The translations under genes were made by a program, and so were the position numbers. Under the pieces are notes generated by a model. The model was not told where the DNA came from, ran no database searches, and worked only from the letters and a program-made list of their open reading frames with translations. Shown piece by piece: positions 3,874 through 38,134 of a DNA stretch of 43,908 bases. The DNA comes from Candidatus Beckwithbacteria bacterium (GTDB taxonomy: Bacteria > Patescibacteriota > Microgenomatia > UBA1400 > CG1-02-47-37): contig JAPLVF010000001.1 in assembly GCA_026397255.1 (NCBI GenBank), forward strand, positions 1 to 43,908, read 5' to 3'. Position 1 is the stretch's first letter. Each line of letters opens with the position of its first letter.

Positions 3874-4863
3874 TTAAGATTGATTTTGTTTGATATTGTT
3901 AGATTGAGTCTTTAAACGGCGTTTTAAGACAATGATTCTCAAGTGAAGAGCAAGAATGTACATAATTAATAAAACTATAATTATCCATATCAAGGGAGAA
4001 CAAGCGAGCAAAATGGGAAAAGCGGTTAAGGCTTGGGGAAATTGGAGGATTGGCTGAGGGAGGCCCGGGAGGGTGATAGTTGGTAGGGGGGAAGGTAAAG
4101 CAATAATGATTCTGGCCGGGGCAGTGATTTTAAGAGTAAATGAAGGGAGGGTAGTGGTGTTGCCGGCAACATCAGTGGCGTTGGCAAAAACAGTGTAGCT
4201 TCCCGGGGCCAAAGGTGTTTTTGGCTGGACAGAGAAAGTTTTATCAGTGCCAACAGAGGCAGCGAGAGGAATGGAGTTGGTCGGGGTGATCAAGTTAAGG
4301 CTGATTTGAGCGCCGGACTCAGATTGGCCGGAAATGATTGGTTGGGATTGGGTAGTGGTAAAGGTTAAACCAGGAGGAATGGTGGTCAGATCATAAGAGG
4401 ATAAGCTGGTTGTCTGGCCGGCGATCCGGTCAATCAGGATTAAAGGCGCTGTGGTATCAATGGTAAAGCTCCAAGTGGCAGAGTTGCGGTTAACACCATT
4501 ATTGCCAATGGCAGTAATAGTCCAGGTGTGTTGGCCTTCGCTAAGAGCCTGGAGAGCATTTACCATAATGGTGTTGGTGGATTGGGGAATATTGTTGGTG
4601 TTAATGCCTCCGTCAATTAAAAGCTGATAATGGTCAACATAAACTTGTCCCCAGGAAGGATTAAAGATAAAAGTCGGGGCGGTGGTGCTGATAGTAGAGT
4701 TATTGGTCGGAGAAATTAAGACAGGCGTGTCCGGTTCGGGGTGGGTGAATTCCGGCACCGTGGCGGTGACGGTGGCATTGTTATCGAAAGATATTACTGG
4801 TGTAGAGTTGAATATAACTGTTATAAAAATTATAACCGCTATAATGAGAAGTTTTTTGGGCAT
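3874..4863 (-). CDS. Secreted Ig-like-domain protein with C-terminal membrane anchor
   Basis: This 329-aa protein starts with an N-terminal signal sequence (KKLLIIAVIIFITVIF). Two beta-sandwich-like regions follow: about 45-135 with TPVLISPTNNSTISTTAPTF and GQHTWTITAIGNNG, and about 140-248 with SGQSESGAQISLNL and PGSYTVFANATDVAGN, both typical of bacterial Ig-like/FN3 extracellular modules. A Pro-rich stretch leads to a membrane helix (WIIIVLLIMYILAL, about 290-305) and a basic tail, so most of the protein is outside the cell. It is convergent with the PaaX-like gene (4-nt gap) and divergent from the toxin-antitoxin pair. Its start lies 7 nt after a TATACT box (4876-4871), suggesting a leaderless message. 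Precise role unknown. Confidence 0.75.
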   Translation of the reverse strand: MPKKLLIIAVIIFITVIFNSTPVISFDNNATVTATVPEFTHPEPDTPVLISPTNNSTISTTAPTFIFNPSWGQVYVDHYQLLIDGGINTNNIPQSTNTIMVNALQALSEGQHTWTITAIGNNGVNRNSATWSFTIDTTAPLILIDRIAGQTTSLSSYDLTTIPPGLTFTTTQSQPIISGQSESGAQISLNLITPTNSIPLAASVGTDKTFSVQPKTPLAPGSYTVFANATDVAGNTTTLPSFTLKITAPARIIIALPSPLPTITLPGLPQPILQFPQALTAFPILLACSPLIWIIIVLLIMYILALHLRIIVLKRRLKTQSNNIKQNQS

Positions 4864-8648: not shown

Positions 8649-9592
8649 TTAGATTCATTATGATGTTTTAATTTATTCTTTGTCAATAGTAAGATTGCGC
8701 TGAGAATAAACACAGCCAGTAAAATTTTATAAGGGAGAACATAAAAGGTTAATGTTTGGGAAATAGTGTTAGTGGTGTCTTTGGGGGTGATTGAGGCCTT
8801 AGCAGTAAAACGGCCGAAAATTAAAGAAGGGACGTTAGTTTCCGGTTGCAGTTGGCGGCTGGAATTGGCTAAAACATTGTCTTCGCGCAAAGGAATGGTG
8901 GCCGAGACGCCGCCGAAAATGTTTTTAATCTCGATTTGGCCGACGGCTTTTAAGCGGGTGGAGGAAGTATTTTGTAAAAGCAGTTGGAAGCTGATCGGTT
9001 CAAAGGAATCATAGATTAGTTTGGCGGAAAACTGGGCAATTTTAGCCAGCGGGCTTAATTGGCCGGTCCGGCTGACGGTTAAAAGAATGTTGGAACCGAT
9101 CGAGGCGAGAGTGGTAGTGCCAGAGCCGGAAATCAGACCCTGGGCGGTGGATTCAAATAAAAAGGCGACGGGGTAATCGGCTTCAATGGCGCTGGCAGGG
9201 AGAGAGATTTTTAAAACCAGCTCCTGAGTTTGGCCGGACTTAAGCGGGAAAGTAGCCGGCAGTTCAGGTAAGTTGGCGTTTTGGAGACTGAAAAAATCAG
9301 GAATAGGATCTGATTTTTTTAAGGTAATGCGGCCGAGTTCGTCGGCCGGTTCGAAGGGGACAATCGAAGCTTTAATAATGACATCGTCACCGAGGTTTTG
9401 CAGTTTATAAACTTGGGTGATGGCTTTGCCCGGTTGGATAACCGCTTCCAAAATCGGCGGCCAAATAGAAAGGGAAAGTGTTTGGGCGGTCGCCGTTTTC
9501 GGCCGAATTATAACGTTTATAAAAATTATAAATATTATAAAAGTTATAGATGTTATTTTATTAATACGGCCGTTGATTTTATTTATTGCCAT
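8645..9592 (-). CDS. DUF916-like membrane-anchored extracellular protein
   Basis: This 315-aa protein has a hydrophobic signal sequence (ITFIIFIIFINVII). A first beta domain starts SIWPPILEAVIQPGKAITQV and has the LQNLGDDVIIKA motif; a second includes QLLLQNTSSTRLKAVGQIEI. A C-terminal membrane helix (YKILLAVFILSAILLL) ends it. The architecture equals that of the gene at 6305, its likely paralogue. It sits between two secreted proteins that share a C-terminal motif, so the operon holds two partner pairs in alternating order. Role as an anchoring partner is inferred. Confidence 0.7.
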   Translation of the reverse strand: MAINKINGRINKITSITFIIFIIFINVIIRPKTATAQTLSLSIWPPILEAVIQPGKAITQVYKLQNLGDDVIIKASIVPFEPADELGRITLKKSDPIPDFFSLQNANLPELPATFPLKSGQTQELVLKISLPASAIEADYPVAFLFESTAQGLISGSGTTTLASIGSNILLTVSRTGQLSPLAKIAQFSAKLIYDSFEPISFQLLLQNTSSTRLKAVGQIEIKNIFGGVSATIPLREDNVLANSSRQLQPETNVPSLIFGRFTAKASITPKDTTNTISQTLTFYVLPYKILLAVFILSAILLLTKNKLKHHNESK

Positions 9593-9595
9593 ATT

Positions 9596-10342
9596 TTAGT
9601 AAGTGGGAATAGCGGTAAAAATAATGGAATTGGTATAGTCGCCGGCGGCTTGGCTGGCGCCGATACTGGCTTGGTAAGTGACGGTGGCGACCCGGCTTTT
9701 ACCAACATTGGGGGAGGACATGACGATTTCGGGAATTTCTCCGCTTGAGGCATCGCTAAATTGTTTGAAAAACTGTTTGAAAAGCGGCGCCGGCCCGGTA
9801 AATTCAGCCGGCACGTCATTGCCGGACATATGATAGCCAAAACCGTATTTGGTGGGATCATCCCAATCATCGGCGGTAGTTTCACTGCAACTACTATTGC
9901 AGAGAGTGTCGGGAATATTGGTCGGAGTGCTTTTTAGCTGGAGCGGGTGATTTTCGTAAGCATTAACACAATAGCCACCGGCGCCGCCGAAAGAAACAGT
10001 TAAAGTATTGGTTGGCGGAGGACTGGGAAAAACATTGGGGATAAGTGTTCCGAAATTTATTGACAACTTAGAAATAGTGAAGTTGAAAGGAATAATGGTT
10101 TTAATATAAGGAAAGCCAGCCTTAACGTAAAAGCCGGTGGAAGCATATTCGCCCGGGGCGTTTTGGCCGACCGTGTCCAAGATATTATAGTTGGTGGAGG
10201 ATTTTGAGCCGGAGGTCATGTTTAAATTGGGAAACTTAAGTTTGTAAGAAGAAGATTCCATGCGGTCAACCGCCCCCGCTTTCGCCGGGGCTATAAAAAT
10301 TATAAAAATTATAAAAATTATAACCCTTAGAGTTTTATTCAT
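9596..10342 (-). CDS. Secreted surface protein with QAAGDY-type C-terminal domain
   Basis: The 248-aa protein has a signal sequence (VIIFIIFIIFIAPAKAGA) whose end is encoded by a palindrome (family E). The segment YKLKFPNLNMTSGSKSSTNY and GQNAPGEYASTGFYVKAGFP is a pattern I associate with secreted proteins of these bacteria. Four cysteines (YCVNAYE, then TLCNSSCSE) could form disulfides. The C-terminus TYQASIGASQAAGDYTNSII matches the end of the protein encoded at 7277-8648. Exported surface component; binding target unknown. Confidence 0.65.
   Translation of the reverse strand: MNKTLRVIIFIIFIIFIAPAKAGAVDRMESSSYKLKFPNLNMTSGSKSSTNYNILDTVGQNAPGEYASTGFYVKAGFPYIKTIIPFNFTISKLSINFGTLIPNVFPSPPPTNTLTVSFGGAGGYCVNAYENHPLQLKSTPTNIPDTLCNSSCSETTADDWDDPTKYGFGYHMSGNDVPAEFTGPAPLFKQFFKQFSDASSGEIPEIVMSSPNVGKSRVATVTYQASIGASQAAGDYTNSIIFTAIPTY
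10273..10290. repeat. Family E palindrome in a signal peptide
   Basis: CCCCCGC and GCCGGGG arms flank TTTC. On the coding strand it encodes APAKAGA, the residues around the expected signal peptidase site of the protein starting at 10342. Confidence 0.75.
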
Positions 10343-12032: not shown

Positions 12033-14495
12033 ATGAATTTTGATCATCAGAAAATCGAGGAAAAGTGGCGGAAAAAGTGGCGGGAGACAGGGATTTATAG
12101 GACTAATTTATCCATTCGACAAGCTCAGGACAAAAAAAAGTGGTACAACCTAATGATGTTTCCGTACCCGTCGGCCGAAGGCTTGCATGTCGGTAACATG
12201 TATGCGTTTACCGGGGCGGATTGTTACGGCCGGTTTAAGGCGATGCAGGGATACGAGGTATTTGAGCCGATTGGGTTGGACGGGTTCGGAATCCACTCGG
12301 AAAATTACGCGATTAAAATCGGCAAACACCCAGCCGATCAGGCCAAAATCAGTGAAAAACATTTTTATGAGCAGTTAAGCCGGATTGGCAACCGTTTTAA
12401 CTGGGATAACCGTTTGGAAACTTACGATCCGGAATATTACCGCTGGACTCAGTGGCTGTTTGTACAAATGTTCAAGCACGGCTTGGCATACCGGAAAAAA
12501 GCTCAGGTTAACTGGTGTCCGTCCTGTAAAACCGTCTTAGCCGATGAGCAGGTGATTGATGGTAAGTGTGAAAGGTGCAGTACGGCAGTCGGGAAGCGGG
12601 AGAACGAACAGTGGTTTTTTAAGATTACAGAGTACGCGCAGAGATTATTGGATAATATTGAAAAAATTGATTGGCCGGAAAAGATTAAAATCAGCCAGAG
12701 AAATTGGATTGGTCGTAGCGAGGGCGTAGAGATTATTTGGAAAATGACAAGGTTCGACCTTGTCATCAGCACTTTTACTACCAGGCCGGACACGATTTAC
12801 GGGGCAACATTTTTAGTTTTAGCGCCGGAGCTGGCGTTGGTGAATAAATTGAAATTAAATAAAGCAGCAAAGGAGTATGTGGCGAAAGCGTTATTAAAAA
12901 CCGAACAGCAACGGAAGTTGGAAGAAAAGAAAAAAACCGGTGTCGATACTGGTTATCAAGTGGTCCATCCTTTGACGGGAAAGCCGATTCCTGTCTGGAT
13001 TGCCGATTTTGTGCTGAAAGACTACGGTACGGGTGCGGTAATGGGGGTGCCGGCGCATGATGAAAGAGACAACGATTTTGCTAAAGAACATCAATTACCG
13101 GTGATAGATATTTTGAAAGATAAAGAGGAGATAATTAGGAAATTAGAGAAAAAAGGTTTGGTAAAAAGAACGGTAAATTTTCATTTAAGGGATTGGTGTA
13201 TTTCCAGGCAAAGATATTGGGGGCCGCCGATTCCGATGATTTATTGTGAAGAGTGTGCTAAAAGAAACACTCCGGAGAGTAAAAATATTCCACTCCGGAG
13301 TGGAATGGCTGGCTGGTATCCGGAAAAAGAGGAGAATTTGCCGGTTAAACTGCCGTATGTCCAAGATTTTAAGCCGACCGGAGACGGGAGAGCGCCTTTG
13401 GCTAAGGCCCCACGGGGGTGGTTAGAAACAGTTTGTCCTGGTTGCGGAGGGAAAGCAAAGAGAGAAATAGATGTGTCTGATACGTTTTTAGATAGTGCCT
13501 GGTATTTTTTGAGGTATCCTTCGGTTTCCAATAAGGAGACTCCTCGTAGGAAGCCTACGAGGAGTCTCCTTGCAGGTACTGACGAGCTTCGTTTGCCTTT
13601 TGATCCGGAAATTACGAAAAACTGGTTGCCGGTAGATGCGTATATTGGTGGAGCCGAGCATGCGGTCCTACATTTGCTTTATTCGAGATTTGTCTGGATG
13701 GCGCTCTCGGATTGGGGCTATATCCCTAAAGCCCTAGGCCCTGAGCCCTTCCCATTCCTGTACGGCCACGGTTTGATTATCAGAAACGGCGCCAAGATGA
13801 GCAAAAGCCGGGGCAATATTGTCAACCCGGACGAATATATTGATAAGTTCGGGGCGGATGCTTTAAGAATGTATTTGATGTTTATCGGGCCGTATGATCA
13901 GGGCGGGGATTTTAAAGATACGGGGATAGTGGGGATGAAGCGGTTTTTGAATCGGGTGTGGAATCTGTGTTCCACTCCCGGTGTGAAAGATGTCCACACA
14001 CCGGGAGTGTTATTGCTGCGACACAAAACCGTTAAAAAACTGACCGAGGCAATGGAGAATTTTCGGTTTAATGTGGGAATTGCCAATATTATGGAGTATG
14101 TTAATGGGCTGGAGAAATATTTCACTCCCGGAGTGAAAGAAGTCTCCACTCCGGGAGTGGATTCGATTAAAACTTTAATTTTGTTGCTGGCGCCGTTCGC
14201 GCCGTATATTAGTGAAGAACTATGGGGGAAAATCGGCGGAAAATTCAGCGTCCATCAGCAACTTTATCCTAAATACGAGGAAAAATTGACGAAAAATGAG
14301 ACAGTTACGGTGGTGGTGCAGGTAAATGGCAAGTTGCGGGGAAGACTAGAATTGGGAGCAGAAGAGGGGAAAAATAAAGAAAAAGTATTAACTTTAGCCA
14401 AAGCCGATGAGCATATAAAACAGTATCTTAAAGATAAAAAAATTGTTAAAGAAATTTTTGTTCCCGGGAAACTGGTGAATTTGGTGGTAAAATAA
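12033..14495 (+). CDS. leuS: Leucyl-tRNA synthetase with six palindrome-encoded insertions
   Basis: This 820-aa class I synthetase charges tRNA-Leu. The HIGH motif is HVGN at residues 52-55 (YPSAEGLHVGNM), KMSKS is at 588-592, and the editing domain has TTRPDTIYGATF and DYGTGAVMGVPAHDERD. Two Cys pairs (CPSCK, CERC) lie in the first zinc-like module and CPGCGG in a later one. Six stretches are encoded by hairpin repeats and look inserted relative to usual sequences: SIRQAQDK, MTRFDLVIS, NTPESKNIPLRSG, KETPRRKPTRSLL, STPGVKDVHTPGV and FTPGVKEVSTPGV. All keep the reading frame, and the signature motifs remain intact, so the enzyme is expected to be active. ATG 12033 fits the usual N-terminus (FDHQKIEEKWRKKW) better than the upstream start at 12015. 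Confidence 0.95.
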   Translation: MNFDHQKIEEKWRKKWRETGIYRTNLSIRQAQDKKKWYNLMMFPYPSAEGLHVGNMYAFTGADCYGRFKAMQGYEVFEPIGLDGFGIHSENYAIKIGKHPADQAKISEKHFYEQLSRIGNRFNWDNRLETYDPEYYRWTQWLFVQMFKHGLAYRKKAQVNWCPSCKTVLADEQVIDGKCERCSTAVGKRENEQWFFKITEYAQRLLDNIEKIDWPEKIKISQRNWIGRSEGVEIIWKMTRFDLVISTFTTRPDTIYGATFLVLAPELALVNKLKLNKAAKEYVAKALLKTEQQRKLEEKKKTGVDTGYQVVHPLTGKPIPVWIADFVLKDYGTGAVMGVPAHDERDNDFAKEHQLPVIDILKDKEEIIRKLEKKGLVKRTVNFHLRDWCISRQRYWGPPIPMIYCEECAKRNTPESKNIPLRSGMAGWYPEKEENLPVKLPYVQDFKPTGDGRAPLAKAPRGWLETVCPGCGGKAKREIDVSDTFLDSAWYFLRYPSVSNKETPRRKPTRSLLAGTDELRLPFDPEITKNWLPVDAYIGGAEHAVLHLLYSRFVWMALSDWGYIPKALGPEPFPFLYGHGLIIRNGAKMSKSRGNIVNPDEYIDKFGADALRMYLMFIGPYDQGGDFKDTGIVGMKRFLNRVWNLCSTPGVKDVHTPGVLLLRHKTVKKLTEAMENFRFNVGIANIMEYVNGLEKYFTPGVKEVSTPGVDSIKTLILLLAPFAPYISEELWGKIGGKFSVHQQLYPKYEEKLTKNETVTVVVQVNGKLRGRLELGAEEGKNKEKVLTLAKADEHIKQYLKDKKIVKEIFVPGKLVNLVVK
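12115..12131. repeat. Family C repeat in leuS
   Basis: TTCGACAAGCTCAGGAC encodes part of SIRQAQDK near the synthetase N-terminus. A related sequence (TTCGACTCCGCTCAGGAC) lies in comEA at 14661. Confidence 0.65.
12744..12766. repeat. Family B-like palindrome in leuS editing domain
   Basis: Ten-base arms ATGACAAGGT and ACCTTGTCAT pair perfectly around TCG. It encodes MTRFDLVI just before the STFTTRPDT motif of the editing domain. Confidence 0.85.
13268..13306. repeat. Palindrome pair in leuS (A-like)
   Basis: CACTCCGGAG occurs at 13268 and 13291. The second copy is part of the perfect 20-mer ATTCCACTCCGGAGTGGAAT (13287-13306). It encodes NTPESKNIPLRSG between two conserved parts of the synthetase. 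Confidence 0.8.
13533..13571. repeat. Family H hairpin in leuS
   Basis: An 18-bp perfect stem (AAGGAGACTCCTCGTAGG and its complement) closes on the 3-nt loop AAG. The 39 nt add 13 codons between the RYPSVSN and LPFDPEI segments of the synthetase. A 36-nt relative lies in argS. Confidence 0.9.
13973..14009 (+). repeat. Family A hairpin, copy 3 (leuS)
   Basis: Arms CACTCCCGGTGTG and CACACCGGGAGTG (13 bp, perfect) flank loop AAAGATGTCCA. It encodes STPGVKDVHTPGV. Confidence 0.9.
14123..14159 (+). repeat. Family A hairpin, copy 4 (leuS)
   Basis: Arms CACTCCCGGAGTG and CACTCCGGGAGTG (13 bp, perfect) flank loop AAAGAAGTCTC. It encodes FTPGVKEVSTPGV, 38 codons after copy 3. Confidence 0.9.
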
Positions 14496-22618: not shown

Positions 22619-22976
22619 TCGTAATGAGTTTAGTCGGCTTTAAGAATTTAAAACCATGGCCGCCACAGAACTGCAACAAACAGTCGCCGGGGTTAAGAAT
22701 GTGTTTTACAAAGGTCCGTCCTTTGTAAAAGAAAGTGGCCTCAATTTGGCCGGAAACCAGATAAATAAACTCCTGATTTTTATGAGTGGTTTTGGCCAGG
22801 CGTCGGTGTTGGTGGGGTTTAACTTGGCGGCCTTTAGGGTAGAAGTTAACTCCCAGCTGTAAAGGGTTATCTGGTTTGGTTAAGAACTGGTGGGGTTTGG
22901 CTTTAAAGTTAGCTTTAATGATAAGAGCTAGGGTGGTTTTTCCGAACTTGATGTTAATTAAATTGTTAGGCATCAT
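22569..22976 (-). CDS. Small cupin-domain protein
   Basis: This 135-aa single-cupin protein has the metal-site-like PHQHRRLAKTTHKNQEFIYL, followed by VSGQIEATFF and NPGDCLLQFCGGHGFKFL. Relatives in glycan clusters are sugar-nucleotide or polysaccharide-modifying cupins, but the substrate cannot be told. The segment YKGRTFVKH between two strands is encoded by a family B palindrome (compare YKGPSFVN in ComEA). It overlaps the upstream gene by 11 nt. Confidence 0.65.
   Translation of the reverse strand: MMPNNLINIKFGKTTLALIIKANFKAKPHQFLTKPDNPLQLGVNFYPKGRQVKPHQHRRLAKTTHKNQEFIYLVSGQIEATFFYKGRTFVKHILNPGDCLLQFCGGHGFKFLKPTKLITIKQGPYSDRQHEKIEI
22704..22730. repeat. Family B palindrome in cupin gene
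   Basis: The core ACAAAGGTCCGTCCTTTGT (22708-22726) is identical to the copy next to the transposase. It is extended by TTTT and AAAA to a 27-nt near-perfect inverted repeat. Confidence 0.9.
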
Positions 22977-36469: not shown

Positions 36470-38134
36470 ATGAGACAAATTATTGAGCAAACGATTAAAA
36501 AAGTTTTAAAAGAATTGGGAGTAAAACCGGTTAAGTTTTCTGTGGAGCACCCGGAAAATATGGCTTGGGGAGATTACACGACTAATGTGGGGATAATTAC
36601 CCATAAAGCCGAGGAAATTGGCGCCAAATTAAAAGCCGAAGAAAGCCTGAATAAAATCGCTTCAAAAATTGAGGTAAAAGGGGCTGGTTTTATTAATATA
36701 TCAATCAAATCAGATGCTCTTGTCAGTCAAGTTAATCAAGTGCTAAAAGGCAATTGGGAAAAACCATTACTGGGAAAGAAAATCAGCGTTGAATATACTG
36801 ACCCGAATCCATTTAAGGAGTTTCACTTGGGCCATTTGTACTCTAATTTAATCGGTGAAGCAATTGCCAAGATTTTTGAAGCTAGCGGGGTGACGGTCTG
36901 GCGGGGGAATTTTTACGGTGATGTGGGAATGCACGTGGCCAAATCCGTCTGGGGAATGCAGCAAAAGCTGACCAAAGAGAAAATTGCGATTAAGGATTTG
37001 GAGAAAAAATCAATCAAAGACAGGCAGAATTTTTTGGGGCAGGGATATGCTTTGGGGGTAAGGGCGTTTGAAGAAGATGAAAAGATAAAAAAAGAAATTA
37101 CCGAGCTGAATAAAAAAATTTATGACAAAGATGAGTCGGTGAAAGAAATTTATGAAGCGGGCTTAAGTTGGTCTTTGGAATATTTTGAAACTTATTACAA
37201 AAGGCTGGGAACCAAATTTGACGGTTATTATCCGGAGTCTAAGGTGGCGGTTTTGGGTAAAAAATTAGTGGAGAAAGGTTTGAAAAAAGGCGTGTTAGAA
37301 AAAAGCGAGGGAGCGGTGGTGTTTAAGGGCGAAAAATATGGCTTACATACCCGGGTATTTTTAAATAAGTTTGGTTTGCCGACCTATGAAGCCAAGGATT
37401 TAGGTTTGGCCCAGGCGAAATACCAGGATTTTAAGTATGACCGGTCGTTAAATGTTTTCGGCAAGGAAATTGACGAGTATTACCGGGTGGTGAAAAAAAC
37501 CTTGGAATTAATCGAACCGGAATTGGGGAAAAAGGCCGAGTGGTTGGCCCACGGCATGGTGAAATTACCAGAGGGGAAAATGTCGTCACGGTCGGGGAAT
37601 GTAATTACCGCCGATTGGCTGTTAAACGAAGCCAAAGGCTTGATCCAGAAAAACTTTAAATGTGATGATGAAGTGGCTGAACAGATCGGCCTGGGAGCGG
37701 TGAAATATGCCTTATTAAAGTCGGGAATTGGCCAGGATGTGATTTTTGACTTTGCCAAGTCAATTAGTTTTGAGGGCAATAGCGGGCCATATTTGCAGTA
37801 TACCTACGCAAGAGCGCGAAGTGTTCTCAAGAAAGCGCACCTGCAAGGAGACTCCTCGCAGGTCTGCGAGGAGTCTCCTTATTGTAATCAAGAAGAAGAG
37901 ATTCTACTGCGGAGCTTGGTGCGGTTTGAGGAAACTATTGTCCAGGCGGCCGAAGAGTTGGCGCCGGACGTGGTGGCGAAATTTTTATATGATCTGGCCC
38001 AAAAATTTAACAGTTTTTACAACAAACACCGGGTGATCGGTAATGATTTTCGGTTGTGGCTGACGAGCGCGACGGGGGAGATTTTAAAGAAAGGATTAGG
38101 ATTATTGGGGATCAGTGCGCCGGAGAAGATGTAG
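36470..38134 (+). CDS. argS: Arginyl-tRNA synthetase with one hairpin-encoded insertion
   Basis: This 554-aa class I synthetase has an N-terminal Add1-like domain (SVEHPENMAWGDYTTNVGII), the HIGH motif as HLGH at residues 119-122 (VEYTDPNPFKEFHLGH), GDVGMHVAK, and the KMSKS-type loop KMSSR at 370-374 (LPEGKMSSRSGNVI), followed by the anticodon-binding DALR domain to the C-terminus. A 36-nt hairpin adds 12 codons (roughly GDSSQVCEESPY) at about residues 460-471, near the start of the DALR domain. The gene for tRNA-Arg(CCT) lies 5.6 kb downstream. Confidence 0.95.
   Translation: MRQIIEQTIKKVLKELGVKPVKFSVEHPENMAWGDYTTNVGIITHKAEEIGAKLKAEESLNKIASKIEVKGAGFINISIKSDALVSQVNQVLKGNWEKPLLGKKISVEYTDPNPFKEFHLGHLYSNLIGEAIAKIFEASGVTVWRGNFYGDVGMHVAKSVWGMQQKLTKEKIAIKDLEKKSIKDRQNFLGQGYALGVRAFEEDEKIKKEITELNKKIYDKDESVKEIYEAGLSWSLEYFETYYKRLGTKFDGYYPESKVAVLGKKLVEKGLKKGVLEKSEGAVVFKGEKYGLHTRVFLNKFGLPTYEAKDLGLAQAKYQDFKYDRSLNVFGKEIDEYYRVVKKTLELIEPELGKKAEWLAHGMVKLPEGKMSSRSGNVITADWLLNEAKGLIQKNFKCDDEVAEQIGLGAVKYALLKSGIGQDVIFDFAKSISFEGNSGPYLQYTYARARSVLKKAHLQGDSSQVCEESPYCNQEEEILLRSLVRFEETIVQAAEELAPDVVAKFLYDLAQKFNSFYNKHRVIGNDFRLWLTSATGEILKKGLGLLGISAPEKM
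37845..37880. repeat. Family H hairpin in argS
   Basis: A 17-bp perfect stem (AAGGAGACTCCTCGCAG and complement) has a 2-nt loop. It is the same element as in leuS (13533-13571) but translated in a different reading frame. Confidence 0.9.

Follow-up and report, generated by a model that had tools for sequence, protein, structure and literature searches.

The window, that is, the whole stretch of DNA analysed here, comprises 43,908 nucleotides and constitutes contig C1 of a Candidatus Beckwithbacteria genome (G000; 895,369 bases in 19 contigs). It carries leuS, the gene for leucyl-tRNA synthetase (LeuRS), in which short palindromic elements or parts of them occupy six sites (s1 to s6), together with a transposase gene of the RAYT type that is itself flanked by palindromes. 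The features are as follows, with the strand given where one was assigned.

1695–1731: family A dimer, inside a short ORF on the minus strand (1527–1814)
2680–2714: family A-like dimer, outside called ORFs
12033–14495, plus strand: leuS, leucyl-tRNA synthetase, 820 aa, start ATG at 12033, intact ORF
12112–12134, plus strand: s1, half-element of family C (TTCGACAAGCTCAGGAC), encoding SIRQAQDK, without a strong hairpin
12744–12766: s2, ATGACAAGGTTCGACCTTGTCAT, 10-bp arms
13268–13306: s3, a degraded half and a perfect core (13287–13306, ATTCCACTCCGGAGTGGAAT)
13533–13571: s4, family H, perfect 18-bp arms, 3-nt loop
13973–14009: s5, family A dimer, perfect 13-bp arms, 11-nt loop, encoding STPGVKDVHTPGV
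14123–14159: s6, family A dimer, encoding FTPGVKEVSTPGV
14502–15113, plus strand: comEA-like gene downstream of leuS, with a family B hairpin (14895–14935) and a family C half-element at about 14662
19208–19238: palindrome of the TTTACAAAGGTCCGTCCTTTGTTAA type, adjoining the 3' end of the RAYT gene
19242–19913, minus strand: RAYT-type transposase, over the PF01797 cut-off, with NF047646 as best NCBIfam match (43.5 bits against a cut-off of 80)
19922–19950: palindrome of the same family as 19208–19238, adjoining the 5' end of the RAYT gene
22705–22729: another copy of the RAYT-flanking palindrome, 25/25 as in the comEA-like gene
37845–37880: family H hairpin within argS (36470–38134, plus strand)

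The leuS product scored 829.6 bits with NCBIfam TIGR00396, whose cut-off is 548.4. It retains HVGN and KMSKS as well as two editing motifs, TTRPDT and GTGAVMGVPAHDERD, and the frame is open through every element, in agreement with the initial annotation on both points. Its description of leuS as essential is unproven, given a second LeuRS-like ORF (L071, 7374–9677, contig C8) that is 42% identical and of native-looking composition, with HVGH and KMSK and a degraded editing region. That contig C8 might be a contaminant was unsupported, its GC content and tetranucleotide distance lying inside the range of 20 other pieces. An ORF resembling, by eye, an LD-carboxypeptidase adjoins this second ORF. 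On contig C13, an H-type element (L143, 4089–4124) sits at the beginning of the ORF directly downstream of a LeuRS-similar synthetase ORF. The window LeuRS is also without the segment bearing the NSG..F.GL motif after the editing domain (13089–13181), which most near orthologues have.

A hairpin scan located five strong hairpins in leuS, at 12744–12766, 13287–13306, 13533–13571, 13973–14009 and 14123–14159; the predicted peptide segments from leuS elements include TPGVKEVSTPGV and ETPRRKPTRSLL. Six palindromic insertions had initially been proposed, of which these five stand, whereas s1 is merely a half-element; its motif type (TTCGACAAGCTCAGGAC) occurs five times in 436.6 kb against none in one shuffle, and no RAYT tie was found for its family C. 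Codon-shuffled versions encoding the same protein had a mean of 0.17 hairpins (six shuffles). The per-ORF survey of G000 covered 436,612 bases (the window and 20 further stretches, about half of the genome), with hairpins below 35% GC excluded from the per-gene counts. It returned 52 hairpins over the same threshold and with at least 35% GC, 35 of them within ORFs. Among 415 ORFs, 386 had no hairpin, 26 had one, two had two, and leuS alone had five. For the same-family genome G002 (400,000 bases, 396 ORFs), leuS again ranked at the top with three hairpins, level with a 7.6-kb gene. At the same threshold, 30 of 36 LeuRS genes, some of them partial, were hairpin-free, the remainder being the window gene (5), that of G002 (3), L040 (2) and L021, L024 and L037 (one each). 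L039, L042 and L044 were removed from this comparison, their longest ORF being partial or not LeuRS; they were also left out of the protein alignment, together with L013, L014, L016, L022, L023, L034, L035 and L036. The alignment and the predominance of hairpin-free genes indicate that the segments are not ordinary conserved parts of LeuRS, the outcome that would have overturned the initial proposal.

The elements have a footprint of 68 codons, to which the initial estimate of 60–70 added residues corresponds; the net gain is only 40 residues relative to the median of the 14 nearest LeuRS orthologues outside the family. From s1 to s6, the window gene departs from that median by +4, 0, +18, +13, −2 and +7 residues, and that of G002 by 0, 0, 0, +9, +5 and +12. 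At s2 and s5, the element replaces a loop of about equal length. In an AF2 model of LeuRS built from an eight-sequence alignment and too weak for detailed mapping (mean pLDDT 65, pTM 0.52), s3 and s4 are entirely coil, s5 and s6 lie between helices, and s2 is at a beta-hairpin turn. Coil accounts for 56 of the 68 element residues against 44% of all residues, an excess that lends weak support because low-confidence segments tend toward coil calls. It could be argued that these are ordinary variable LeuRS loops with palindromes arising by chance, given that s2 and s5 add no length and that the loop at s3 is long in unrelated orthologues too. We regard this as scarcely credible: the gene has five hairpins against 0.17 in codon shuffles, and the same sequences recur at other places in the genome and next to RAYT genes. 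Chance is thereby refuted for s2 to s6, and only s1 could be discounted.

Six Y1_Tnp ORFs were found in the 895 kb of G000, all above the PF01797 cut-off and all with at least one nearby palindrome. The NCBIfam model NF047646, 'REP-associated tyrosine transposase', was the best or only match for all four of these six that were scanned, at 35–45.5 bits, below its cut-off of 80. The RAYT genes, one of them inside the window, had been missed by the initial annotation. Compared by sequence, the leuS elements match RAYT-flanking repeats of G000 or its family, exactly at s3, at 20 of 21 bases at s2, through a shared core type at s5 and s6, and by a weaker resemblance at s4. The s3 core is identical (20/20 bases) to the palindrome on either side of the G000 RAYT gene L051. 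The counterpart of s2 lies around and inside a RAYT gene (L178) that comes from G001, a genome of the same family, and not from G000; by eye, a hairpin of this type stands at loop s5 of the G001 leuS. For family A, ATCACACACC-GGTGTGTGAT flanks both the G000 RAYT gene L050 and its 71% identical G002 counterpart, the two being bordered by CACACC-C-GGTGTG; among the seven G000 A dimers, three have the 13-nt core of this flank as their half. Dispersed A dimers in G017 use CACCCC, and a related RAYT there has CACCCC-GGGGTG on both flanks. G034 has five A dimers, yet no RAYT of matching type was found among its RAYT matches. The resemblance of s4 (family H) to CCTAC-type RAYT palindromes was judged by eye only, as was the GTAG tag, which lies inside the stems of H and CCTAC-type palindromes and is absent from A, s2 and s3.

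RAYT genes also contain palindromes of their own. Among 46 RAYT ORFs in the fetched loci, 41 had a flanking hairpin (21 on both sides) and 30 an internal one. Internal and flanking palindromes share a 9-mer in 23 of the 28 RAYTs having both, against 99 of 1202 pairings between different RAYTs, kinship being ignored in this comparison. The internal copies lie mostly near codon 49 or codons 147–160. Loci in which the RAYT's own flanking palindrome was seen in frame inside the gene include L087, L088, L091, L093, L095, L097, L098, L155, L157 and L182, among others, and from gene to gene the internal copies track the flanking sequence.

Conserved protein genes with in-frame elements are leuS, argS, comM, dprA, radA, miaA and tsaD, and the elements measure 20–41 nt. 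Two further observations concern the window at large. Short TATAAAAAT-like repeats with a period of 9 stand near gene ends at 4813–4844, 9509–9558 and 10292–10332. GC skew is positive (0.05–0.38) in every piece, namely window positions 1–40000 and the G002 stretches L119–L138; a one-sided composition similar to this skew is described for Microgenomates Ch65 (PMC7143001).

Family A is the commonest family, and its dimer halves, including those of s5 and s6, follow CANNCC-S-GGNNTG. The strict A pattern occurs seven times in G000, eight times in G002, three times in G017 and five times in G034, and the remaining 49 of 53 genomes lack it; the reversed pattern had no match among the 53. In G000 and G002, every one of the 15 strict A dimers is inside an ORF, and these dimers are read as peptides of the TPGVKxVxTPGV type (10), the HSRSE..HSGS type (3) and the THPVC..HRVW type (2). 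The eight strict dimers of G002 all fall within 172,827–238,391 (66 kb) of its complete genome of 1,049,888 bases (its contig C1), and homologues from this A-rich neighbourhood (leuS, comM and tsaD) bear A elements in G000. A replication origin behind the cluster was considered and set aside, as dnaA lies at 1,010 kb, about 200 kb off, with no obvious link.

The arms of family A are unusually well preserved. Among 23 A elements, the freely varying long-range positions are all paired in 20, and in four elements the long stem is intact although the local half-palindromes are broken. Pairing in the long stem reaches 99.3% across 22 distinct sequences, where 26 cells are double-changed against a shuffle mean of 10.1 and four pairs show double changes; the local pairs are 97.0% paired with 22 double-changed cells. 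The search pattern fixes most positions, so that information comes only from four variable pairs. None of the 15 strict dimers of G000 and G002 has an arm mismatch. A relaxed scan yielded 15 perfect copies, two variants with perfect arms and two copies with a single arm mismatch. Copies with two or three were absent, and those with at least four arm mismatches were about as frequent as in shuffles. Arms at the three sites common to G000 and G002 are identical at 74 of 78 positions, compared with 67% identity for leuS outside the elements and 47% at third codon positions. At s5 and in comM, both arm differences between the two genomes are paired double changes, and each of the two in comM changes an amino acid (T/N and V/L). 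Such perfect complementarity in the commonest family, sometimes maintained by paired changes that alter the protein, is not what neutral ageing predicts.

A mutational process, either template switching or arm-to-arm correction of quasi-palindromes, might keep the arms complementary without selection or recent movement. The mismatch-free strict dimers, the near-absence of partial decay, the paired changes in the long-range stem and the four elements with broken local halves are all consistent with it, and template switching in palindromes is discussed for the coding palindromes of nematomorphs (PMC6649704). Nevertheless, it leaves unexplained the presence of unrelated families at the same loops and the match to RAYT-flanking palindromes, and we consider it rather doubtful as an account of the elements. 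Such arm correction can, however, operate alongside movement by RAYTs.

The A loops offer a further view of descent. Loop likeness averages 7.7 and 7.3 of 11 within the two genomes and is 5, 7 and 8 of 11 at the same site across genomes. Plain vertical descent of A in leuS is not clearly favoured by these values, the loops being no clearly closer at the same site between genomes than between sites within one. Either the A elements at shared sites landed there recently and independently, or they are old copies kept perfect by selection or arm-to-arm copying.

Reuse of sites was examined between G000 and G002, which share 146 reciprocal best pairs, 26 of them with an element; eight pairs with less than 60% coverage were dropped, leaving 138 for the test. 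For five of 21 G000 elements, the nearest G002 element is at most 20 codons away (three in leuS and one each in comM and radA). Uniform placement gave a mean of 0.40 (maximum 4 in 2000), and within-gene placement a mean of 1.34, with the observed value reached in 31 of 5000. Both genomes are filled at s4, s5 and s6 and at an identical position in comM. The G002 hairpin at s4 is a different one with the same left junction as in the window (TCCAATAAGGA), whereas loops s5 and s6 of G002 hold family A, and G001 has another family at s5. By eye, the partner holds a repeat of another family or frame at the second radA site and in miaA, argS, dprA and a glycosyltransferase. The GGATTCCSGRTCARGYCSGGAATGAC repeat, present at 88 places in G036 and 14 in G046, occupies s2 and s3 of the G036 LeuRS (L011) and s2 of the G046 LeuRS (L008). 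Family C stands at s1 of L043, C-like sequences occur at s1 of L021 and s4 of L037, and s3 of L037 holds a hairpin of a different kind. With up to 3 mismatches, the TTCGAATTT repeat that L027 carries at s4 was found at 14 places in G028, two in G011 and none in G022. The L032 repeat at s3 was discounted as weak, with three places only in G006, two of them with 2 mismatches. The initial suggestion that elements insert often and are selected for nothing but frame and loop position is thus well supported by the several families in frame, their placement mainly in coil in the low-confidence model, and the repeats of relatives in the same loops.

Alternatively, the leuS insertions may predate the split between G000 and G002, with the hairpins selected for a role in mRNA or DNA, such as stability, translation pausing, or a nucleoid or replication signal. 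The loops filled in both genomes (s4, s5, s6 and comM), the 74 of 78 identical arm positions against 47% at third codon positions, the paired double changes in s5 and comM, and the long-range pairing of 99.3% with its 26 double-changed cells would all fit an old and selected origin. We nonetheless find it unlikely. The same LeuRS loops are occupied by unrelated families both in G001 and in relatives further away, which means that no one hairpin is required, and 30 of 36 LeuRS genes are hairpin-free at the same threshold. Moreover, the likeness of A loops to other copies within one genome about equals or exceeds their likeness to the corresponding site of the other genome, a pattern suggestive of copying or conversion particular to each lineage. 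An mRNA benefit, though possible, does not follow from the unusually well-kept pairing, since mobility of the elements or copying between arms would account for it too.

In-frame REPs are already known from other bacteria. GTAG/CGTC-tagged REPs occur as units and dimers in frame in ORFs, where a gene can hold as many as two; genes for tRNA synthetases and DNA repair are among those affected, and in recB two Xanthomonas species have distinct REPs at nearly the same position (PMC3733652). The GTAG REPs are linked to RAYTs, and REPs are mostly intergenic and form large families (PMC3733652). In contrast to those REPs, all 15 A dimers here lie in ORFs at low copy number, five to six elements of several families share one gene, and RAYT genes contain their own palindrome in frame. 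The published descriptions of RPE and WPE in Rickettsia and Wolbachia (PMC2229807, PMC4224334) likewise present palindromes that entered conserved protein genes in frame and that the protein tolerates. RPEs measure 105–146 bp and no transposase is named for them in these descriptions, whereas the elements here measure 20–41 nt and match RAYT palindromes; RPE arm identity is reported to fall with time (PMC6649704), whereas A elements keep theirs. As in the Pseudomonas REPIN–RAYT system (PMC3116915), an inverted pair of halves forms one hairpin with compensatory changes, and the RAYT is flanked by the same element. The REPINs described there are numerous, longer than the elements here and extragenic, with 14 of 1,067 16-mers overlapping genes; the A dimers, by contrast, lie in ORFs throughout, with seven and eight copies per genome (G000 and G002). 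Nematomorph mitochondria have perfect, apparently maintained coding inverted repeats, as here, but without dispersed families or a transposase (PMC6649704). An open-access literature search returned nothing on palindromic insertions in CPR/Patescibacteria genes or on REPs inside RAYT genes. New here are the density in one gene, the reuse of loops by different families, the RAYT genes with their own in-frame palindrome, and the short, coding-biased nature of these RAYT-linked elements.

We consider it quite likely that the leuS inserts are several families of REP/REPIN-like palindromes, mostly linked to RAYTs (Y1/HUH), whose landings are frequent and persist only where the frame is kept and the loop tolerates a change of length. 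RAYTs probably move the elements, which they may copy or transfer as single-stranded hairpins. Insertions would land widely over the genome, and purifying selection would clear those that break the frame or a structured part, so that survivors gather in length-tolerant loops, presumably at the protein surface. LeuRS would offer several such loops, filled, emptied and refilled by different families, and a benefit to the enzyme or the mRNA is unnecessary to explain the elements. Against this stand the lack of any transposition event or empty site seen between close strains, the nearest relative being 60% identical in LeuRS, the low copy number (seven strict A dimers in G000), and the near-absence of partly decayed A copies, which is unexpected under neutral ageing. 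Loop tolerance alone also fails to explain why leuS has five hairpins and other genes at most two, or why the A elements of G002 cluster in 66 kb.

More tentatively, and as a possibility we would not favour, a fixed set of coding loops (in leuS, comM, radA, argS and others, two of them in RAYT genes) may be the standing habitat of the RAYT-linked elements, reused by competing families, while the transposase, copying between arms or selection actively preserves the perfect palindromes even at the price of a changed protein. If so, the in-frame copies within a RAYT gene could make that gene or its message a target for binding or cutting by the RAYT, which could in this way limit itself.

The spread of palindromic elements into protein genes has been a puzzle since Rickettsia, and transposase-driven movement of in-gene palindromes had no experimental support according to a review (PMC2229807). 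Since the in-gene elements share a genome with RAYT genes bearing matching palindromes, element–enzyme pairs are directly testable here. Furthermore, through the reuse of loops, these genomes naturally chart where LeuRS and other proteins tolerate insertions.
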